Shown piece after piece: positions 14,657 to 25,105 of a DNA stretch of 41,039 nucleotides. Where the stretch lies: the NCBI GenBank assembly GCA_004322085.1, contig SCRR01000058.1:1-41039 (forward strand), given 5' to 3'. The DNA is from Burkholderiaceae bacterium (GTDB lineage: Bacteria; Pseudomonadota; Gammaproteobacteria; Burkholderiales; Burkholderiaceae_C). Under the pieces are notes generated by a model. It saw only the letters and a program-made list of their open reading frames with translations. It did no database searches and had not been told where the DNA came from. Position 1 is the stretch's first letter. The number at the start of each line of letters is the position of its first letter. A program made the translations under genes and the position numbers.

Positions 14657-15418
14657 TCAAGCCGCCGAAGAGGCCTTGAGCTGCAGCGCGGGTCGCCCCA
14701 GGCGCGGCAGGCGCCGGCGCGAGCGCAGCACCTGCTCGATGTCCTCGTGCGCGCCATCGATAAGCACCAAGATGGCCTGCTCGGCGCCGGTCACGTCGTG
14801 GGCTATCACGGCATCGAGTACCGCGCGGTGCAGCGGCAACGAACGGCGCGGGCCATTCTTCTTGCTCGTGGAAAGCTCGAAGCTCGTGCGCAGCAGCGCA
14901 CCCAAGGCCTTGCTCATCTGGACCAGCAGGCGATTGTGCGAGGCGCGCATCAAACCCTGGTGAAAGCGCAGGTCGTAGGTGACGTAATCGCCGCCGTGCA
15001 GCACGGCGCGCTTCATGCCGGCATAGGCGTCTTCGATGCCCGCGTTATCTTCGGCCGTGGCCCGCTCGGCAGCCAGCCGGACGGCCGCAGGCTCGACGAC
15101 ACAGCGCAAGTCCTGCAGGTCACGAATGAATTCGGGGCTCAGCCCGGTGCGTGATTGCCAGGCAATCACGTCCGAATCGAACCAGTTCCAGTCGTCCGAC
15201 GGCAGCACGCGGGTCCCCACCTTCGGGCCGGTGTGGATCAATCCCTTGGCCACCAGCGATTTGACAGACTCGCGTATGACCGTTCGACTGACGCCGAGCT
15301 CTTCACAGAGCAGGGGCTCAGGTGGAATCAAGCTATCCACCGCATAGCGGCCGGCGACGATGGCCTCGCCGAGAAAATCGACGGTGTTGCCGTGCACGTT
15401 TTTCATCACGGTTGTCAT
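14657..15418 (-). CDS. FadR-subfamily GntR transcriptional regulator
   Basis: A 253-residue regulator. The N-terminal winged helix (LGEAIVAGRYAVDSLIPPEP, then CEELGVSRTVIRESVKSLVA) is the GntR DNA-binding domain, and the C-terminal helical FCD domain (about 100-235; DLRFHQGLMRASHNRLLVQM, LHRAVLDAV) binds an acid effector, often a sugar acid in this group (DgoR-like). Its ATG (15418) overlaps the stop of the upstream dehydrogenase gene as ATGA, so they are translated together. It most likely represses the divergent dehydratase/importer/dgo-type genes; a palindrome fitting the FadR-type consensus lies at 16484-16500. The effector is probably a galactonate-like acid or its 2-keto-3-deoxy product (inferred). 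Confidence 0.9.
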   Translation of the reverse strand: MTTVMKNVHGNTVDFLGEAIVAGRYAVDSLIPPEPLLCEELGVSRTVIRESVKSLVAKGLIHTGPKVGTRVLPSDDWNWFDSDVIAWQSRTGLSPEFIRDLQDLRCVVEPAAVRLAAERATAEDNAGIEDAYAGMKRAVLHGGDYVTYDLRFHQGLMRASHNRLLVQMSKALGALLRTSFELSTSKKNGPRRSLPLHRAVLDAVIAHDVTGAEQAILVLIDGAHEDIEQVLRSRRRLPRLGRPALQLKASSAA

Positions 15419-16356
15419 TGCGGCACCGGCGTCAGCAAAGGCTGGCCGGCAAAATGCGCCTGCAAATTGCCGAAGGCCAAATCGGCCATGGCGCGGCGCG
15501 TCTGCCAGGTCGCACTGCCCACGTGCGGGGTCAGCACCACGTCGTCCCGCGCGCATAACTCGGCCGGCACACGAGGTTCGTTCTCGAACACATCCAACGC
15601 CGCGCCGGCGATCAGGCCCTGATCAAGGGCACGGATCAGGGCGCCCTGATCGACCACCGAGCCGCGCGCGACGTTGATCAAGTAGCCCTGCGGTCCCAGC
15701 GCCGTCAGCACCTGCTCATTAATGAGCCCACGCGTCGCGTCGCCGCCCGGCGTGATCACCATCAAAAAATCGACTTGCACCGCCAGCGCCTGCGGCGTCG
15801 GGTAGTAGCGGAACGCCGTTGCCGGCTTCTCATGGCGCGCCGTATACGCGACGGACATGCCGAAGCCTTCGGCCCGCCGCGCGATGGCCAGGCCGATACG
15901 CCCCAGCCCGACAATGCCCAGCCTGGCGCCGCTGACCTTGCGCCCCAAAACCATCCGTCCGTGCGACCACTCGCCGGCGCGCACAAACCGGTCCGCCTGC
16001 GCAATACGCCGCGCCACGGCGAGCAGCAGGCCCATGCCCATATCGGCCACATCGTCCGTCAACACATCCGGCGTGTTGGTGACCGGCACGCCGCGCTCCC
16101 GCGCCGCCTGTACGTCGATCCCGTCGTAGCCCACGCCAAATACGGAGATGATCTCCAGTGCCGGCATTTGGTCAATCAGGGCTCGCGGCACCTTGGCCTC
16201 GCCGCTGGCCGCAACGGCGCGGATGCGGGGCGCAAGCGCCGCAAAGGCTACCGGGTCTGATTGATGCACACGATCGTGCACAACATAGGCCACCTGCAGG
16301 GCCTCCATGTATGGTGGCCACAAATTCGCAGCCACCAGAATTTCAGGTTTTGACAA
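15415..16356 (-). CDS. D-isomer-specific 2-hydroxyacid dehydrogenase
   Basis: A 313-residue NAD(P)-dependent dehydrogenase. The Rossmann motif is LGIVGLGRIGLAIARRA, and the catalytic Arg, Glu and His appear in INVARGSVVDQGAL, ALDVFENEP and LTPHVGSATW. It resembles the glyoxylate/hydroxypyruvate and 2-ketoaldonate reductase branch. In a sugar-acid cluster it probably reduces a 2-keto acid or oxidises a 2-hydroxy acid, but it is not a required step of the pathway drawn from the neighbours. It is the first gene of a minus-strand operon with the GntR regulator (ATGA overlap) and the cupin gene, and it diverges from the dehydratase gene. Confidence 0.92.
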   Translation of the reverse strand: MSKPEILVAANLWPPYMEALQVAYVVHDRVHQSDPVAFAALAPRIRAVAASGEAKVPRALIDQMPALEIISVFGVGYDGIDVQAARERGVPVTNTPDVLTDDVADMGMGLLLAVARRIAQADRFVRAGEWSHGRMVLGRKVSGARLGIVGLGRIGLAIARRAEGFGMSVAYTARHEKPATAFRYYPTPQALAVQVDFLMVITPGGDATRGLINEQVLTALGPQGYLINVARGSVVDQGALIRALDQGLIAGAALDVFENEPRVPAELCARDDVVLTPHVGSATWQTRRAMADLAFGNLQAHFAGQPLLTPVPQ

Positions 16357-16483
16357 GACACACTCCAGACAACAAACTCGGACCCGGATACGAGGACTAC
16401 GCCATGTGCTGCCCTCCCCCTACTGAAATTTACCGTATCGATCGGGCGCTCAATTGGGGGCTTTACAGATCGCGGCGGATTGT

Positions 16484-16500
16484 TTATCGTATTACCATAA
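16484..16500. promoter_or_regulatory. Candidate GntR (FadR-type) operator
   Basis: TTATCGTATTACCATAA is a 17-bp palindrome with one mismatched pair, centred on 16492. Its core (16487-16497) fits the FadR-subfamily consensus t.GTa.tAC.a exactly. It lies in the divergent promoter region between the 2-hydroxyacid dehydrogenase and dehydratase genes and overlaps a possible plus-strand promoter (TTTACA at 16462-16467, 17-bp spacer, TATCGT at 16485-16490). The FadR-type regulator encoded two genes away is the obvious binder, giving repression of both directions. The promoter boxes themselves are weak. Confidence 0.6.
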
Positions 16501-16563
16501 TATGATTGTATGATCGCACGGCTGGGGTATTTCCTCAAATTCAAGTCTTCAACCATTTCCACG

Positions 16564-18300
16564 ATGAGCCAACTCCCCAAGAAGAAACCCGAAGAACTCC
16601 GCAGCCAGCAATGGTTCGGCCGCCAGGACCGCGACGGCTTCGCCTATCGCAGTTGGGTCAAGGGCAAGGGTGTGCCGCACGACCAGTTCGACGGACGCCC
16701 GGTCATCGGCATTTGCAACACCTTCAGCGAACTCACGCCCTGCAACTCTCACTTCCGTACCCTGGCCGAGCAGGTCAAGATCGGCGTGTACGAAGCTGGT
16801 GGCTTTCCCCTCGAATTCCCGGTCATGTCGTTGGGCGAGACCTTGCTGCGCCCGACCGCCATGCTGTATCGCAACCTGGCCAGCATGGATGTGGAAGAAA
16901 GCATTCGCGGCAACCCGCTCGACGGCGTCGTGCTGCTGATGGGCTGCGACAAGACCACACCCTCGCTGGTGATGGGCGCGGCCAGCGTGGACTTGCCGAC
17001 CATCGGCGTGAGCGGCGGCCCGATGCTCAACGGCAAATGGCGCGGCCAGGACCTGGGCTCGGGCACCGGCGTGTGGAGCATGAGCGAGCAGGTGCGCGCC
17101 GGCACCCTCAAGCTGACCGATTTCTTTGAAGCCGAGAGCTGCATGCACCGCAGCCACGGCCATTGCATGACCATGGGAACAGCCAGTACCATGGCCAGCA
17201 TGGTGGAAGCGCTGGGCCTCGGGCTGCCCGGCAATGCGGCGTACCCGGCCGTCGACGGGCGGCGCAATGTACTGGCGCGCATGGCCGGGCGGCGCGCCGT
17301 CGGCATGGTGCACGAAGACCTCAAGCTGTCGAAAATCCTCACGCGCGAGGCATTCGAGAACGCCATCACGACACTGGCCGCAATTGGCGGCTCCACGAAT
17401 GCCGTGATCCACCTGATTGCCATGGCGGGGCGCATCGGCGTCAAGCTGACAATTGACGACTTCGACCGGCTCGCCGGCGAACTGCCCTGCCTGGTGAATC
17501 TGCAGCCGTCGGGAAAATTCCTGATGGAAGACTTCTGTTACGCGGGTGGCCTGCCCGTCGTACTCAAGGAAATGGCGCAGCACTTGCACCTTGGGGCCCT
17601 CGCGGCCAACGGCCTGACGCTCGGCGAGAACATTGCCGGCGCACAAAACTACAACACCGAAGTCATCAAGCCGCTGGCCACGCCGTTCAAGGAGCACGCC
17701 GGCATCGCGGTGTTGCGCGGCAACCTGTCGCCGCGCGGTGCCGTCATCAAGCCCAGCGCCGCCACGCCCGCGCTGATGGTGCACAAGGGCCGGGCCGTCG
17801 TCTTTGAAAACATCGAGGACTTTCATAAACGCATCGACGATGAGTCGCTCGACATCGACGAAAACTGCGTCATGGTGCTCAAGAACTGCGGCCCCAAGGG
17901 CTATCCCGGCATGGCCGAGATCGGCAACATGCCGCTGCCGCCCAAGATACTGCGCCGCGGCATCACCGACATGGTGCGCATCAGCGACGGACGCATGAGC
18001 GGCACCGCCTACGGCACCGTGATCCTGCATACCGCGCCCGAAGCCGCCGCCGGCGGGCCGCTGGCTGTGGTGCAAAACGGCGACATGATCGAACTCGACG
18101 TGCCGCGCCGCCTGCTGCACTTGCACGTCAGCGACGAAGAACTGGCGCGCCGGCTGGCCCAGTGGACGCCGCCTGAACCCCCGCTGCCCTCCGGCTACTG
18201 GAAGCTGTACGTGGACCGCGTGCTGCAGGCCGATGAAGGCGTCGACCTGGACTTTCTGGTGGGACAACGGGGCTCGTTCGTGCCTCGCAACAACCATTGA
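16564..18300 (+). CDS. IlvD/Edd-family sugar-acid dehydratase (arabonate/galactonate type)
   Basis: A 578-residue dehydratase that resembles, from memory, the L-arabonate dehydratase of Rhizobium along its whole length. The Fe-S ligands expected from that enzyme are present: C60 (TPCNSH), C128 (MGCDKTTPS, with K130 the likely carbamylated metal ligand) and C201 (GHCMTMGTAST). The active-site serine region is RISDGRMSGTAYGT. It removes water from an aldonate to give a 2-keto-3-deoxy acid. With DgoK- and DgoA-type genes downstream, D-galactonate is the most consistent substrate, but L-arabonate or D-fuconate remain possible. The start at 16564 (MSQLPKKKPEELRS) matches the family; the frame is open to 16510. 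Confidence 0.9.
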   Translation: MSQLPKKKPEELRSQQWFGRQDRDGFAYRSWVKGKGVPHDQFDGRPVIGICNTFSELTPCNSHFRTLAEQVKIGVYEAGGFPLEFPVMSLGETLLRPTAMLYRNLASMDVEESIRGNPLDGVVLLMGCDKTTPSLVMGAASVDLPTIGVSGGPMLNGKWRGQDLGSGTGVWSMSEQVRAGTLKLTDFFEAESCMHRSHGHCMTMGTASTMASMVEALGLGLPGNAAYPAVDGRRNVLARMAGRRAVGMVHEDLKLSKILTREAFENAITTLAAIGGSTNAVIHLIAMAGRIGVKLTIDDFDRLAGELPCLVNLQPSGKFLMEDFCYAGGLPVVLKEMAQHLHLGALAANGLTLGENIAGAQNYNTEVIKPLATPFKEHAGIAVLRGNLSPRGAVIKPSAATPALMVHKGRAVVFENIEDFHKRIDDESLDIDENCVMVLKNCGPKGYPGMAEIGNMPLPPKILRRGITDMVRISDGRMSGTAYGTVILHTAPEAAAGGPLAVVQNGDMIELDVPRRLLHLHVSDEELARRLAQWTPPEPPLPSGYWKLYVDRVLQADEGVDLDFLVGQRGSFVPRNNH

Positions 18301-18404: not shown

Positions 18405-19490
18405 ATGGCTGCCGTTCAAATCAGAGGAGTCGAAAAACATTTCGGCGCGACGCATGTCATTCGCGGCGTGAACATCGACATTGAAGACGGGCAGTTCACC
18501 GTGCTCGTGGGTCCGTCAGGCTGCGGCAAGTCGACCTTGCTGCGAATGATTGCGGGCCTCGAAGAAATAAGCGGCGGAGAAGTCGCCATTGGCGGCAAAG
18601 TGGTGAACAAGATGATGCCGAAGGAGCGGGACATCGCCATGGTTTTCCAGAACTATGCGCTCTACCCGCACATGACCGTGCGCGACAACCTGGCCTTCAG
18701 TCTGATGTTGGCAAAACAGTCGAAGGCCATGGCTGATGAGCGGGTCATGAAGGCTGCCGACATCCTGGGCTTGGCCGATCTGCTGGATCGCTTCCCGCGC
18801 CAGCTGTCTGGCGGACAGCGTCAGCGCGTGGCCATGGGCCGCGCCATCGTGCGGGATCCCCAAGTATTCCTGTTCGACGAGCCCTTGTCCAACCTTGACG
18901 CGCAATTGCGGGTACAGATGCGCACCGAGATCAAGGAACTGCACCATCGCCTCGAAGCAACCTCCATCTATGTCACGCACGATCAGATCGAGGCCATGAC
19001 CATGGCTGACAAGATCGTCGTGATGCGCGACGGCCTTGTCGAGCAAACCGGCTCGCCACTGGAGCTGTACGACCATCCGGTCAACCGGTTTGTGGCGGGC
19101 TTCATCGGCTCGCCCTCCATGAACTTCCTGCCTGGCGTGCTTCACCGCAGCGGTGGCACCGCCACGGTGGAGTTCGCTGACGGCGTGTCCCTGCCGGCGC
19201 CGATCCATGCAGGTGGCCAGGACGGTCAGAAAGTCATTTACGGCACCCGGCCCGAGCACATCGATCTGGCTGGCGCGGGCGACGGCGTTGCAACCAGGGT
19301 AGTGGTGGTTGAACCCACGGGAGCCGAAACCCAGATCTTCACGAAGATAGCCGGCGTCGAAGTCACCAGCGTGTTCCGTGAGCGTCATGAGTTCAGGCCC
19401 GGTGAAACCATCCGGCTGCGCCCCGACGCCGCCCGCGCCCATTTGTTTGATGCTGCCAGCGGAGTGCGCCTGGCGGCTTTGAGTGCTTGA
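18405..19490 (+). CDS. ABC sugar importer, ATP-binding subunit (UgpC/MalK type)
   Basis: A 361-residue ATPase with Walker A GPSGCGKST, Q-loop VFQNYALYPHMT, signature LSGGQRQRVAMGRAI, Walker B VFLFDEPLSNLD and switch histidine YVTHDQIEA. The last 120 or so residues form the TOBE/regulatory domain typical of carbohydrate importers of the CUT1 family (YGTRPEHIDL). The start follows AAGGAGA. It energises the binding protein and two permeases encoded next. The ATPase gene comes first in this operon, ahead of the binding-protein gene. Confidence 0.94.
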   Translation: MAAVQIRGVEKHFGATHVIRGVNIDIEDGQFTVLVGPSGCGKSTLLRMIAGLEEISGGEVAIGGKVVNKMMPKERDIAMVFQNYALYPHMTVRDNLAFSLMLAKQSKAMADERVMKAADILGLADLLDRFPRQLSGGQRQRVAMGRAIVRDPQVFLFDEPLSNLDAQLRVQMRTEIKELHHRLEATSIYVTHDQIEAMTMADKIVVMRDGLVEQTGSPLELYDHPVNRFVAGFIGSPSMNFLPGVLHRSGGTATVEFADGVSLPAPIHAGGQDGQKVIYGTRPEHIDLAGAGDGVATRVVVVEPTGAETQIFTKIAGVEVTSVFRERHEFRPGETIRLRPDAARAHLFDAASGVRLAALSA

Positions 19491-19491
19491 T

Positions 19492-19515
19492 GGCGCCGAG
19501 CGCGCCTGGTTTTTT
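19492..19515 (+). terminator. Terminator-like hairpin between ATPase and binding-protein genes
   Basis: GGCGC (19492-19496) pairs with GCGCC (19502-19506) around a 5-nt loop, and a TGG plus six T residues (19510-19515) follow. This is a short intrinsic terminator shape. Lying inside the importer operon, it would act as a partial terminator or attenuator rather than an end of transcription. Confidence 0.45.
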
Positions 19516-19545
19516 GTTGCTTGATCCAACCTAAAGGAGACATCC

Positions 19546-20862
19546 ATGTCCGGTTTCAATCGTCGAAAATTCCTGGAAAAAACATCAGCGGCAGGGGCCG
19601 CCGCAGCCGTGCCCATGCTTTGGCCCACGGCAGCGCAGGCTCAGTGGAACGTTAAGCCCGAAAAAGGAGCCAAGCTGCGCGTTCTGCGCTGGAGCCGCTT
19701 CGTGCAGGGCGACATTGACGCTTACATGGCCAACGTCAAGAAGTTCACCGAGAAGACAGGCATCGAGGTTCGGGTCGAAAACGAAGGCTGGGAGGACGTG
19801 CGACCGAAGGCGGCGGTCGCGGCCAACACCGGCGCCGGCCCCGACATCATCCTGTCGACCAACGATGATGCCAACTTGTACCCCGAAAAGCTGCTCGACG
19901 TGACCGACCTGTGCGACTACCTCGGCAAGAAATACGGCGGCTGGTATCCGGTGTGCTACCAATTCCTGCGTCCCGATGGCAAGCACTGGATCGGCGTGCC
20001 GCTTGGCGCCGCGGGTTCGATGATGGTCTACCGCCAAAGCATGCTGAAGGCGGCTGGCTTCGACAGTTTTCCGAAGGACACCGACGGTTTCCTGAAGATG
20101 TACAAGGCGCTCAAGGACAAGGGCACGCCGGGCGGCATGGCGCTCGGCAACGCCACCGGCGACGGCCTCTGGTGCAACTGGCTGATGTGGGCCTTCGGCG
20201 GCAAGCTGGTCGACAAGAACAACAAGGTCGTGATTGACAGCCCAGAGACCATCAAGGCGCTCGAGTATGGCAAGGACCTTTATGCCAACTTCATCCCTGG
20301 CACGCTGTCGTGGCTCGACCCAAACAACAACAAGGCTTTCCTGGACGGCCAGATCAGCGTCACCAACAACGGCATCTCGATCTACTATGCCGCGAAGAAC
20401 TCGCCCGATCCCAAATTGAAGGAAATGGCGCTCGACATCCAGCACGCAACGTTCCCGATCGGCCCGGTTGGCGTGCCGACCGAATCGCAGCTGTTCTTCA
20501 ACCAGATGGTGATGAAGTACACCAAATACCCGAACGCGGCAAAGGAGTTCCTGCGCTTCATGATGGAAGCAGATCAGTTCAACGCCTGGCTGGAGGGCTG
20601 CGGCGGTTATGTGGCGCAGCCGCTGGTCGCCTACGAGAAGAACCCGATCTGGACCTCGGACCCGAAAAACACGCCATACCGCGACTCGGTCAAGAACATG
20701 CGTCCGGCCGGCTACGACGGCAAGCTCGGTTACGCGTCGGCGGGCTGTGCGGCCGACTTCATCGTCGTCAACATGGTGGCCGAAGCGGCGAGCGGCGCGA
20801 AGACGCCGAAGGAAGCGGCGGAGCGTGCGCAAAAGCGTGCCGAGCGCTATTACAAGGTTTGA
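19546..20862 (+). CDS. ABC sugar importer, extracellular solute-binding protein (Tat signal)
   Basis: A 438-residue CUT1-type binding protein. The N-terminus has a twin-arginine export signal, NRRKFLEK, then an Ala-rich hydrophobic stretch and a likely cleavage site after AAQA near residue 31. So it is exported folded. The mature part has features of the family, such as RVENEGWEDVRPKAAVAAN and GAGPDIILSTND. A clear AAAGGAGA ribosome-binding site precedes the ATG. The sugar cannot be read directly; the neighbouring genes point to galactose or another aldose/aldonate. A hairpin lies after its stop, before the permease genes. Confidence 0.93.
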   Translation: MSGFNRRKFLEKTSAAGAAAAVPMLWPTAAQAQWNVKPEKGAKLRVLRWSRFVQGDIDAYMANVKKFTEKTGIEVRVENEGWEDVRPKAAVAANTGAGPDIILSTNDDANLYPEKLLDVTDLCDYLGKKYGGWYPVCYQFLRPDGKHWIGVPLGAAGSMMVYRQSMLKAAGFDSFPKDTDGFLKMYKALKDKGTPGGMALGNATGDGLWCNWLMWAFGGKLVDKNNKVVIDSPETIKALEYGKDLYANFIPGTLSWLDPNNNKAFLDGQISVTNNGISIYYAAKNSPDPKLKEMALDIQHATFPIGPVGVPTESQLFFNQMVMKYTKYPNAAKEFLRFMMEADQFNAWLEGCGGYVAQPLVAYEKNPIWTSDPKNTPYRDSVKNMRPAGYDGKLGYASAGCAADFIVVNMVAEAASGAKTPKEAAERAQKRAERYYKV

Positions 20863-20908
20863 CGATAAGTCCCCGTTGACACCTCTTGCAAGACGAGTAC
20901 GTGACCCA

Positions 20909-20931
20909 AGCTGCCCGCCGCGCGGGCAGTT
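20909..20931 (+). repeat. Strong hairpin downstream of the binding-protein gene
   Basis: CTGCCCGC (20911-20918) and GCGGGCAG (20922-20929) form a perfect 8-bp stem with a CGC loop, extended by a G-T and an A-T pair. No T-run follows. Its place between the binding-protein and permease genes is like the REP hairpin of the E. coli malE-malF gap, which protects the upstream message, so an mRNA-stability role is plausible. Confidence 0.55.
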
Positions 20932-20986
20932 CGGGTGACAGGACGATTCGCCCTGTGCTTCACGGCAAGGCAAACTAAACGCCACC

Positions 20987-21889
20987 ATGCTGCGAAAACT
21001 GCAAAACAGTCGAAACGCGCTGGGCTTGATTTTCATGCTCCCGGCAGCGGTATTTCTGGTGCTATTCCTGACATATCCGCTCGGCTTGGGCCTGTGGCTC
21101 GGCTTCACCGACGCCAAGATCGGGCGCGCCGGCAGCTGGATCGGGCTGGAAAACTACGAGTTCCTGTGGGGCGACAGCGTGACACGGCTGGCGCTCTTCA
21201 ACACGCTTTTCTACACGACGGTAGCCTCGGTGCTGAAGTTCGGGCTGGGGCTGTGGCTCGCGATCCTGCTCAACCGCAACATCCGCTTCAAGACCTTTTT
21301 CCGCGCCGTCATCCTGCTGCCCTACATCGTGCCAACCGCGCTTTCGGCGATCGCCTTCTGGTGGATCTACGACGCGCAGTTCTCCATCATCAGCTGGGCG
21401 CTGGTCAAGATGGGGCTGATCACCCACTATATCGACTTCCTCGGCTCGCCGTGGAACGCGCGCTTTTCCGTCATTGCCGCCAACGTCTGGCGCGGCGTGC
21501 CCTTCGTCGCGATCACGCTGCTGGCGGGTCTGCAAACGATTTCACCGTCGTACTACGAGGCGTCGGCCATCGACGGTGCCACGCCATGGCAGCAATTCCG
21601 TCACGTCACGCTGCCGTTGTTGACGCCGATCATCGCGGTGGTGATGACGTTCTCGGTGCTGTTCACCTTCACCGACTTCCAGTTGATCTACGTGATCACC
21701 CGCGGCGGACCGCTGAATGCGACGCACCTGATGGCAACGCTCGCATACCAGCGCGCGATCAATGGCGGCGCGCTCGGTGAAGGCGCGGCGATCGCAATCT
21801 CGATGGTGCCGTTCCTGCTCGCTTGCATCATGTTCAGCTTCTTCGGCTTGCAGCGCCGCGCCTGGCAACAGGGAGGGACCGACAAATGA
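20987..21889 (+). CDS. ABC sugar importer, permease subunit 1 (MalF type)
   Basis: A 300-residue inner-membrane permease with about six membrane segments, starting with the first near residues 12-35 (LIFMLPAAVFLVLFLTYP). The cytoplasmic EAA loop that contacts the ATPase is YYEASAIDGATPWQQFRHVT. It forms the channel with the second permease. Its gene overlaps the next by 4 bp (ATGA). The gap before it is 124 bp and contains the hairpin at 20909-20931; no strong ribosome-binding site is seen. Confidence 0.93.
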   Translation: MLRKLQNSRNALGLIFMLPAAVFLVLFLTYPLGLGLWLGFTDAKIGRAGSWIGLENYEFLWGDSVTRLALFNTLFYTTVASVLKFGLGLWLAILLNRNIRFKTFFRAVILLPYIVPTALSAIAFWWIYDAQFSIISWALVKMGLITHYIDFLGSPWNARFSVIAANVWRGVPFVAITLLAGLQTISPSYYEASAIDGATPWQQFRHVTLPLLTPIIAVVMTFSVLFTFTDFQLIYVITRGGPLNATHLMATLAYQRAINGGALGEGAAIAISMVPFLLACIMFSFFGLQRRAWQQGGTDK

Positions 21890-22761
21890 AAGCCGCCACG
21901 CAAACCGACTCGGCCGGCATGAGCTTTCTGGAATCCATACCGCGCCGCGCGGTCATCGTGTATTTGCCACTGATCGTGTTTGTGGTCGTGCTGCTATTCC
22001 CGTTCTACTGGATGGCCATCACGTCGGTGAAGCCCAACGCTCAGCTACTCTCGCCCGCGGGGAACCCGTTCTGGGTGGTCGGGGCAACCCTGACGCACTT
22101 CCACAAGCTGCTGTTCGAGACCTCGTTCCCCGAGTGGATGTGGAACACGGTGCTGATATCGGTCTTGGCGACCGCTTTTTCTCTAGCGGCGGCGGTGCTC
22201 GCCGCCTACGCCATCGAACGGCTGCGCTTTCGCGGCTCCAGGTACTTCGGGCTGGGGATCTTCCTGTCTTACCTGGTGCCACCGACCATTCTGTTTATTC
22301 CGCTGGCCAACGTGGTGTTCAAACTCGGTTTGTCCGATACGCGCTGGGCGCTGATTCTGACGTACCCCACGTTCCTGATTCCGTTTTGCACCTGGCTGCT
22401 GATGGGCTACTTCCGCTCGATTCCGTTCGAACTCGAGGAGTGCGCCCTGATCGACGGCGCCACTCGCTTGCAGATTTTGGTCAAGATCGTGCTGCCGCTT
22501 GCCGTGCCGGGCATTATCTCGGCCGGCATCTTTGCCTTCACGCTGTCATGGAACGAGTTCATCTACGCGCTGACCTTTATTTCGTCGTCGGAGAACAAGA
22601 CACTGGCGGTTGGTGTCGTGACCGAGCTGGTGCAGGGCGACGTCTACCAATGGGGTCCGCTGATGGCGGGCGCCCTGCTTGGTTCCCTGCCGGTGGCCAT
22701 TGTCTATTCCTTCTTCGTCGAATACTATGTTTCGGGCATGACGGGTGCGGTCAAGGAATAA
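21886..22761 (+). CDS. ABC sugar importer, permease subunit 2 (MalG type)
   Basis: A 291-residue inner-membrane permease with about six membrane segments; the EAA loop is LEECALIDGATRLQILVKIV followed by LPLAVPGI. The start at 21886 is chosen because it gives an ATGA overlap with the first permease, a usual translational coupling, and is preceded by GGGAGGG. The gene is followed after 24 bp by the DgoK-type kinase gene, so import and catabolism probably share one transcript. Confidence 0.93.
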   Translation: MKAATQTDSAGMSFLESIPRRAVIVYLPLIVFVVVLLFPFYWMAITSVKPNAQLLSPAGNPFWVVGATLTHFHKLLFETSFPEWMWNTVLISVLATAFSLAAAVLAAYAIERLRFRGSRYFGLGIFLSYLVPPTILFIPLANVVFKLGLSDTRWALILTYPTFLIPFCTWLLMGYFRSIPFELEECALIDGATRLQILVKIVLPLAVPGIISAGIFAFTLSWNEFIYALTFISSSENKTLAVGVVTELVQGDVYQWGPLMAGALLGSLPVAIVYSFFVEYYVSGMTGAVKE

Positions 22762-22785: not shown

Positions 22786-23691
22786 ATGAACCACGTCCTG
22801 GCCATCGATTGGGGCACGTCGTCGTTGCGCGGCGCGCTGCTCGATGACACCGGTAAGGTATTGGAAGAACGGTCTATTGCACGCGGCGTCCTGACTGTAT
22901 CGCCAGGTGAGTTCGCTACAGTTTTTGAGGCTCACTTCGACCAATGGGTAAGGGCTACAGGCACTTTTTGCTTGATATCCGGTATGGCCGGCAGCCGCCA
23001 GGGCTGGATCGAGGCCCCCTACTGCGCCTGCCCCGCGGGGTTTGACGAAATCGCCCACGCGCTGGCCTGGATCACGCCGGGCCGTATCGCCATCGTGCCG
23101 GGACTGCACTGCGAGCACGGCGGCATCCCGGATGTCATGCGCGGCGAGGAAACCCAGGTGCTCGGCGCCCTGCAGTTGCTGGGCCTGCGGGACGCGCTGT
23201 TGGTACTGCCCGGCACGCACAGCAAATGGGTGCGCGTGCGCTCACGCCGTATCGAGCACTTCGCCACCCTCATGACGGGCGAGTTCTATGCGCTGTTGCG
23301 CCAGCATTCCATCCTTGCGCGCACCCTGCCCACCGATGACGGTGAGCTCGATTTGGACGCGTTCAACCAGGGCGTTGCACTCGCGCTGCGCGGCAACAGC
23401 CTACTGCAAACAACTTTCAGCGCGCGGACATTGTCATTGTTTGAACGCTTGCCCGCGCCAGCGCTGCCGAGCTACCTGTCGGGCCTGGTGATCGGTGAAG
23501 AGTTGCGGGCTCAGCCGCTGCAGGCGGGCGAAACGGTGGTCGTGATCGGTTCCAACACGCTAACCGAACGCTACGAACTCGCCCTGGCGCAGCGCCACGT
23601 GTCGGTCCAGTGCGTGGGCCAGGAGGCTGCCTGGTGCGGCCTGTGGGCCATCGCCGAGTCCTTGTCTCCATCTCTCTCTGAAATGTCATGA
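22786..23691 (+). CDS. dgoK: 2-dehydro-3-deoxygalactonokinase (DgoK type)
   Basis: A 301-residue kinase of the DgoK family (E. coli DgoK is about 290). It starts with the phosphate-binding motif LAIDWGTSSLRGALLDD and carries LISGMAGSRQGW and LVLPGTHSKWVRV, typical of the family. It phosphorylates 2-keto-3-deoxy-galactonate at C6 using ATP. Its stop overlaps the ATG of the aldolase gene (ATGA). It follows the importer genes closely, and its product feeds the aldolase encoded next. Confidence 0.9.
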   Translation: MNHVLAIDWGTSSLRGALLDDTGKVLEERSIARGVLTVSPGEFATVFEAHFDQWVRATGTFCLISGMAGSRQGWIEAPYCACPAGFDEIAHALAWITPGRIAIVPGLHCEHGGIPDVMRGEETQVLGALQLLGLRDALLVLPGTHSKWVRVRSRRIEHFATLMTGEFYALLRQHSILARTLPTDDGELDLDAFNQGVALALRGNSLLQTTFSARTLSLFERLPAPALPSYLSGLVIGEELRAQPLQAGETVVVIGSNTLTERYELALAQRHVSVQCVGQEAAWCGLWAIAESLSPSLSEMS

Positions 23692-24326
23692 ACGCACACG
23701 AAAAATGGGCGCACTCGCTGCACACCCTGCCCCTCGTTGCCATTTTGCGCGGCCTGCCGGCGAACGACGCCCTGTCGATCGGCGCAGCGCTCGCCGGCGT
23801 GGGCTGGACGCTGATTGAGGTGCCACTCAACTCCCCGCAACCTCTGAAGAGCATCGAAGCCATGGTCGACGCGTTTCCAAACGCCCTGGTCGGCGCGGGC
23901 ACGGTACTCAACCCCGGCGATGTACGTGATGTTCACGCGGCCGGCGGTCAGCTCGTGGTGGCACCCAATTTCAACCCGGAGGTGGTTCGCGAGGCAGTGC
24001 ATTTGGGTCTGGTCTGTCTGCCGGGCGTGATGACCCTGACCGAGGCGTTTGCCGCGCTGGACGCCGGCGCCACCGGTCTCAAGCTGTTTCCGTCGGAGCT
24101 GATTCCACCAGCCGCGGTGAAAGCCCTGCGCGCTGTGCTGGATGCGGACACCGTGCTGCTGCCGGTCGGCGGCATCACGCCCCACAACATGGCCGCTTAC
24201 CTAAGCGCCGGGGCCAGCGGCTTCGGCATTGGTTCTGCGCTTTACAAGCCCGGCATGGGCGCTCTGGCCATCCACGAGAACGCTATGGACTTCATAGCTA
24301 CTTACGGGGGTACCATCAGGGCATGA
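23688..24326 (+). CDS. dgoA: 2-dehydro-3-deoxy-6-phosphogalactonate aldolase (DgoA type)
   Basis: A 212-residue class I aldolase of the KDPG/KDPGal family (E. coli DgoA is about 205). The base glutamate is in LIEVPLNSPQPLKSI and the Schiff-base lysine in GLKLFPSELIPP; PVGGITPHNMAAYLSAGASG is the phosphate-binding end. Products are pyruvate and D-glyceraldehyde-3-phosphate. The sequence is closer to DgoA than to Eda (LPLVAILRGLPANDA start). It overlaps both neighbours by ATGA, first with dgoK and then with the SDR gene. Confidence 0.9.
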   Translation: MNAHEKWAHSLHTLPLVAILRGLPANDALSIGAALAGVGWTLIEVPLNSPQPLKSIEAMVDAFPNALVGAGTVLNPGDVRDVHAAGGQLVVAPNFNPEVVREAVHLGLVCLPGVMTLTEAFAALDAGATGLKLFPSELIPPAAVKALRAVLDADTVLLPVGGITPHNMAAYLSAGASGFGIGSALYKPGMGALAIHENAMDFIATYGGTIRA

Positions 24327-25105
24327 ACGCTATTTCTTCTCAAGTTTCGTTTGGATTGGGCGGCCGGGTGTGCATCGTCACTGGCGGCGCGCAAGGCATC
24401 GGCGAAGCCTGCGTTCGCCGCTTCGCCCGCGAAGGCGCCCCCGTCGTGATCGCCGACGTGGACGATGCGCGCGGCCAGAAGCTGGCGCAGGAACTCGGGG
24501 CCCTGCACGCGCATTGCGACGTTGGCGACAAGGCCCAGGTGGATGCGCTGGTCGCCCGGGTCATGACCGTGCATGGCCGCATCGATGTGCTGGTGAACAA
24601 CGCGGGCATCTTCAAGGCCGCGGATTTTCTGGATGTGACCGAGGCCGATTTCGATGCCGTGCTGCGCGTCAACCTTAAGGGCGCGTTCCTGATGGGGCAG
24701 GCCGTGGCGCGCGCGATGGCCCATGTGCACCGGGGCGCCATCGTCAACATGAGCTCCGTCAACGGCGTGCTGACCATCCCCACCATCGCGAGCTACAACG
24801 TCAGCAAGGGCGGCATCAACCAGCTCACGCGCGTGATGGCGCTCGCGCTGGCCGACCAGGGCATTCGCGTCAATGCCGTGGCGCCCGGCACCATCGCGAC
24901 CGAGCTCGCCGCCAAGGCGGTGCTGACCAGCGAAGAGGCCAAGGCGCGCATCATGAGCCGCACACCGATGAAGCGACTCGGTGAACCGTCCGAGATTGCC
25001 GACGTGGTGGCCTGGCTGGCCAGCGACGCGGCCAGCTACGTTACCGGCGAGATCGTCACCGTCGATGGCGGGCGCATGACGCTGAACTACACCGTTCCGG
25101 TGTAG
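24323..25105 (+). CDS. SDR family oxidoreductase, probable aldose dehydrogenase
   Basis: A 260-residue classical short-chain dehydrogenase: cofactor motif VTGGAQGIGEA, NNAG, catalytic Ser in NMSSVNG, YNVSK as the Tyr-Lys pair, and a C-terminal VTGEIVTVDGG. Related enzymes oxidise glucose, galactose or arabinose at C1 to the lactone, and its place as the last gene of the ATGA-linked dgoK-dgoA chain supports an aldose 1-dehydrogenase role here. Substrate choice is inferred from context only. Asp-Val-Asp after the second beta strand suggests NAD preference. Confidence 0.85.
   Translation: MNAISSQVSFGLGGRVCIVTGGAQGIGEACVRRFAREGAPVVIADVDDARGQKLAQELGALHAHCDVGDKAQVDALVARVMTVHGRIDVLVNNAGIFKAADFLDVTEADFDAVLRVNLKGAFLMGQAVARAMAHVHRGAIVNMSSVNGVLTIPTIASYNVSKGGINQLTRVMALALADQGIRVNAVAPGTIATELAAKAVLTSEEAKARIMSRTPMKRLGEPSEIADVVAWLASDAASYVTGEIVTVDGGRMTLNYTVPV

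Follow-up and report, generated by a model that had tools for sequence, protein, structure and literature searches.

RESULTS

Gene neighborhood of the divergent region

The window, by which we mean the whole 41,039-nucleotide stretch of DNA that was analyzed, holds a 207-bp divergent region between a leftward transcript and a rightward gene cluster. The first gene of the leftward transcript encodes a D-2-hydroxyacid dehydrogenase (15415 to 16356, minus strand) and overlaps by 4 bp with the gene for a 253-residue GntR/FadR-subfamily regulator (P0001; 14657 to 15418, minus strand), the predicted reader of the operator described here. The apparent start codon of the dehydrogenase is TTG (16354 to 16356, minus strand), and TTG occupies the same place in most orthologues. 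The rightward cluster, all on the plus strand, opens with an IlvD/EDD-family sugar-acid dehydratase (16564 to 18300), whose solved relatives are 8EJ0, 5J83, and 9EVV (L-arabinonate dehydratase), followed by 7M3K (galactonate dehydratase). Downstream lie a sugar ABC transporter (18405 to 22761), made up of an ATPase (18405 to 19490), a binding protein (19546 to 20862), and two permeases (20987 to 21889 and 21886 to 22761, the second placed by its open reading frame position only); a DgoK-like 2-keto-3-deoxygalactonokinase (22786 to 23691; PF05035, E 3.6e-97); a DgoA-like 2-dehydro-3-deoxy-6-phosphogalactonate aldolase (23688 to 24326; NF006600, above cut-off); and an SDR dehydrogenase that is possibly an aldose 1-dehydrogenase (24323 to 25105; NF005559, above cut-off, a family match only). 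Judged by its protein families, the cluster encodes a predicted galactonate-type hexonate pathway; the families leave the exact substrate unfixed, given that the nearest solved relatives of the dehydratase are general sugar-acid dehydratases. The nearest named genome is that of Polaromonas sp. C04, whose regulator is 90% identical.

An N-terminal GntR winged helix (PF00392, E 6e-13) and a C-terminal FCD domain (PF07729, E 8e-26) place P0001 in the FadR subfamily, which bears out the claim of the initial annotation that a FadR-type regulator is encoded next to the site; the GntR/FCD protein is encoded two genes away. The closest solved structure is that of Escherichia coli DgoR (7C7E, E 2e-36; 38% identity over 212 residues), and the gene adjoins those for the hexonate dehydratase, the KDGal kinase, and the KDPGal aldolase, the context expected of a DgoR orthologue. 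Four of the 10 mapped residues of the galactonate pocket of DgoR (PMC7674646) are identical in P0001, namely R105 and the metal site D149/H153/H197, and the remaining ones differ (Q173, R179, W181, D184, T191, and S221). D-Galactonate is a plausible effector judging from the pathway; the pocket does not indicate it.

The site matches the FadR-subfamily consensus, and its symmetry alone is weak evidence

Positions 16484 to 16500 read TTATCGTATTACCATAA, centered on T16492, in agreement with the sequence and coordinates first reported. The arms, TTATCGTA and TACCATAA, pair at 7 of 8 positions, with C16488/C16496 as the unpaired position. The core at 16487 to 16497, TCGTATTACCA, matches TNGTANTACNA (t.GTa.tAC.a) without mismatch at any fixed position, as had been claimed, and contains GTATTAC (16489 to 16495), the GT-N3-AC palindrome of FadR-type operators. 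The site had been described as midway in the divergent region; it does lie inside the 207 bp between the dehydrogenase start (16356, minus strand) and the dehydratase start (16564, plus strand), but somewhat nearer the latter.

The TNGTANTACNA pattern occurs twice in the 41-kb window, compared to 0.03 expected, and the second match lies within a permease gene (21548 to 21558). Throughout the 3.6-Mb genome, the pattern is found at nine places (seven on other contigs and two in the window). We considered the eight other matches as extra operators and rejected them, given that all are within coding sequence. Palindromic 17-mers of equal quality number 37 in the window, compared to 28 after shuffling. 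When the 207-bp intergenic region is shuffled by dinucleotides, 6.5% of the shuffles yield a 17-mer that is at least equally symmetric, for which reason palindrome strength alone was rejected as proof of an operator. The bare palindrome is therefore weak evidence, and the significance of the site derives from its conservation and genome-wide specificity.

The motif is conserved in orthologous regions and unique in the genome

Regulator orthologues were gathered from whole genomes and named contigs, their neighboring genes were located, and the divergent regions were compared. All 33 distinct dehydratase/regulator-arm regions align on one block, the core positions of which carry high information. 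Its consensus is ATSRT-MAT-AYSAT (also given as ATSRT-NAT-AYSAT), symmetric about a fixed A. The minus strand of the site, TTATGGTAATACGATAA, is an exact match to the refined motif ATSRTNATAYSAT, which was found at the corresponding place in 30 of the 33 regions compared to 0.02 expected from shuffles, a figure that overstates independence since the regions are related sequences; the leave-genus-out, uniqueness, and co-occurrence tests stand apart from it. A matrix trained without the genus ranked 16484 first in the window with a score of 24.0, close to the training median; the next nonoverlapping place in the 41 kb scored 7.9, and none of 3,000 shuffles reached the score of the site (best, 18.7).

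The exact refined motif occurs once in the 3.6-Mb genome, at the site itself, and once each in three other genomes (G002, G005, and G042), at the orthologous place. It had been proposed to look for the same site at other sugar genes of this genome; the search returned no other exact refined motif, and the regulator therefore looks local. Matches with one mismatch numbered 33 on the two strands besides the exact one, compared to 16 for a reversed control, and 3 of these 33 are reverse-strand and neighboring boxes of the same operator.

The GTA.TAC form at this locus is one of several. Many orthologues carry ATCAT-CAT-ATGAT in its place, and the G/C pair of GT-N3-AC is relaxed to A/T in some (R/Y at that pair). 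The palindrome is perfect in Polaromonas sp. C04 (TTATGGTAATACCATAA), and other lineages have TTATCGTCATACCATTG or CAATCATCATATGATAA. The exact fit to the FadR consensus thus holds here, but it is partly a property of the lineage. The recognition helix reads GVSRTV(I/V)RE in practically every one of the 45 orthologues, whatever the form of the site, and the contact residues R45, T46, and R49 are invariant; R45 and R49 are presumably the recognition-helix arginines in FadR numbering. We considered a change in contact residues as the explanation for the GTA.TAC and ATC.GAT forms and rejected it, given the unchanged helix in these 45 proteins.

A second conserved element was observed on the dehydratase side of the operator (16525 to 16536), reading GGGGTATTTCC here and CAGGGTATTCCCC, GGGGTAAACCCTG, or AGGATTAACCCTGATG in other orthologous regions. 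It coincides with the ribosome-binding site and dehydratase start where regions lack the dehydrogenase, and in regions with the dehydrogenase it lies upstream and resembles GGGT-ACCC symmetry.

The site accompanies the regulator gene

We compared the presence of the motif with that of the regulator in 61 genomes of the family, with an orthologue defined by at least 67% identity. Of the 16 genomes that encode an orthologue, 15 carry the exact motif within the cluster; in the remaining one (G053), a form with one mismatch precedes a transporter operon whose last gene is that of the regulator. Among the 45 genomes without an orthologue, the motif matched somewhere in 6, and none of the matches that were placed lies at the dehydratase. 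No site was found upstream of the dehydratase in 13 genomes that have this gene and lack an orthologue at the 67% threshold. These 13 include a genome of the same genus (G006; dehydratase 95% identical) and one in which the dehydrogenase and dehydratase genes form the same divergent pair but the regulator is absent (G036).

Across the Comamonadaceae and their neighbors, including most of 29 further loci, the site goes with regulator orthologues even where the gene order differs. Where gntR is placed elsewhere or apart from the dehydratase, the site heads its operon (L049, L053, G018, G053, L042 to L044, L050, and L052), in some of these loci several kilobases from gntR, and at the two loci where no dehydratase adjoins the regulator (L049 and L053), it is still just upstream of the regulator gene. 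In G018, Polaromonas CF318 and JS666, Ideonella, Rubrivivax albus, and Ramlibacter, the regulator is encoded at the far end of the transporter operon, and the motif is found in the dehydrogenase/dehydratase divergent region; a second copy heads the transporter operon in all of them except Ramlibacter, and these genomes have no exact matches beyond these cluster sites.

FadR-subfamily operators look alike, and the site could in principle belong to a different regulator of this family, of the hexuronate or lactate type, for example, instead of the neighboring GntR protein. In two genomes of the Comamonadaceae with no clear intact orthologue (G024 and G045), good motif matches occur at other loci, and another regulator might share the motif. 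We nevertheless judge a different reader to be very unlikely, given the close co-occurrence of the site with this orthologue in the 16 family genomes and most of the 29 further loci, including unlinked and operon-head layouts, and the joint absence of orthologue and site in the same-genus genome. As a counterexample, G024, one of the 13 genomes without an orthologue, is ambiguous, since it contains an orthologue fragment interrupted by an assembly gap.

Exact motif copies in G024 (L120 and L131) are located at other genes that, read from their translations only, resemble sugar-acid catabolism: in one case a dehydrogenase with an enolase-superfamily-like dehydratase after it, in another an SMP-30-like lactonase. 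The regulon may be larger in that genome. Some relatives have a further operator copy between the dehydrogenase and gntR (L011:1457, L015:1467, and L047:3965), which suggests separate autoregulation, and a Rhodoferax region has two full operators 57 bp apart (L038:3914 and L038:3971), possibly one per side of the divergon.

The probable operator is an array of half-sites that overlaps a predicted promoter

The extent of 16484 to 16500 stood as the core of the operator, but the array is longer: four half-site boxes, each without mismatch, run from 16486 to 16514 in 8-bp steps with 3-bp spacers (ATCGT, 16486 to 16490; ACCAT, 16494 to 16498; ATGAT, 16502 to 16506; and ATGAT, 16510 to 16514). A third box at the 8-bp step, with at most one mismatch, is present in 58% of orthologous regions compared to 0 to 27% at other offsets; the -3 and +3 offsets are high only through overlap with the core. 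Compared to Polaromonas sp. C04, the window has an 8-bp insertion that supplies the fourth box; two or three boxes are present in relatives. We tentatively entertain, as a reading that we would not favor at present, that the operator evolves as a ladder of 8-bp half-site units, that any two adjacent boxes can serve as a dimer site, and that the number of boxes tunes cooperative repression of the divergent genes. The operator is otherwise ordinary, and only this ladder of half-sites is slightly unusual.

The sole promoter-like match in the divergent region is a predicted sigma-70-type dehydratase promoter (16462 to 16490, plus strand), in which TTTACA (16462 to 16467) is followed after 17 bp by TATCGT (16485 to 16490). 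This is a consensus match only and a weak one, at 9 of 12 positions. The likely -10 element lies inside the operator and shares its sequence with the outer half-site, suggesting repression by occlusion. Six orthologous regions (L005, L006, L007, L041, L046, and L051) retain TTTACA with 17 to 18 bp between it and TATSRT; they comprise genus relatives and some others and thus only part of the orthologues.

Given that -10-like hexamers (TATTAT and TATSRT) occur in the block on both strands, we considered that it could be nothing other than the overlapping -10 elements of two divergent promoters, with the palindrome as a consequence. This is extremely unlikely: the conserved S/R pairs of the half-sites differ from the -10 consensus, genomes with the regulator have extra sites at transporter operons as well as between gntR and the dehydrogenase, and the site is missing from G036, where the divergent genes are the same but the regulator is absent. 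The weakness of the promoter match is also compatible with a regulator that binds here as an activator, or as an activator on one arm and a repressor on the other, and some FadR-subfamily proteins, such as GlcC, do activate. We regard activation as unlikely, given that the site covers the predicted -10 and start region, as is typical where a regulator represses, and that the closest characterized relative, DgoR, is a repressor (PMC12288454).

DISCUSSION

Judged from sequence comparison, positions 16484 to 16500 very probably form the core of the operator to which the GntR/FadR-type regulator (14657 to 15418) binds. This assignment is supported by the conservation of the site, by its single occurrence in the genome, by its association with the regulator in other genomes, and by the promoter-like match that it overlaps. 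Three observations count against it: GT/AC is not present in all orthologues although the contact residues are unchanged, the -35/-10 match is weak and kept in part of the orthologues, and G024 and G045 have good motif matches elsewhere.

We hypothesize that a regulator dimer would read the inverted half-sites ATSRT/AYSAT of boxes 1 and 2, 3 bp apart, through its winged-helix domains, and that the neighboring boxes at 8-bp steps up to 16514 would offer a place for a second dimer, perhaps on boxes 3 and 4. In the absence of inducer, the protein on the DNA would mask the dehydratase promoter at its -10 element and probably also the leftward dehydrogenase-gntR promoter at its start region; one site would therefore silence both arms, and the regulator would control itself. 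A sugar acid of the pathway, either the hexonate or its 2-keto-3-deoxy product, would bind the metal-containing FCD domain and cause the protein to release the DNA, whereupon the uptake and catabolic genes would be made.

This predicted arrangement resembles the DgoR/dgo system, in which a FadR-subfamily repressor controls hexonate genes from an operator (IR1/IR2) that overlaps the promoter and has more than one binding unit; the IR1 core, TTGTAGTACAA (PMC12288454), shares the GTA-N-TAC frame with the site in the window. The two systems differ in that gntR is here the second gene of a divergent transcript with the dehydrogenase, the operator prefers ATSRT half-sites, and the dehydratase is of the IlvD/EDD type and not of the DgoD type. 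DgoD is an enolase-superfamily dehydratase.

FadR-type sites usually contain GT-N3-AC, lie in the middle of a divergon when single, and often have an extra half-site 7 to 12 nt away (PMC4494728). The operator shares with the consensus of the subfamily (Rigali consensus; TKGT-N3-ACMA, Suvorova et al. 2015) the inverted half-sites with GT and AC 3 bp apart, the single mid-divergon location, and the extra half-site at 7 to 12 nt. It departs from that consensus in having C or G at the K/M position, often A/T at the G/C of GT/AC, fixed AT/AT flanks, and, in the window, four boxes instead of three. A regular array of half-sites under a FadR-subfamily repressor is also known from the NanR operator, (GGTATA)3, where such arrays are occupied by several dimers (PMC8012715). 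The NanR repeats are direct, whereas neighboring boxes here also form inverted pairs, and outside the core the array varies.

The open-access literature that we searched contained no publication on a galactonate regulon in the Comamonadaceae, Burkholderiales, or betaproteobacteria; an in silico regulon for this orthologous group may already exist, for example in RegPrecise. The comparison gives a precise predicted operator and motif ATSRTNATAYSAT for these sugar-acid regulators of the Comamonadaceae, a family on which we found no paper in that same literature.

In summary, the predicted operator is of a familiar kind and leaves the general understanding of GntR regulators unchanged. A single recognition helix that tolerates both GTA.TAC and ATC.GAT-like forms makes a useful case for DNA recognition. 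With one or two sites in many genomes, the regulator appears to act locally, and the motif lets its regulon be read from the genome of any relative.
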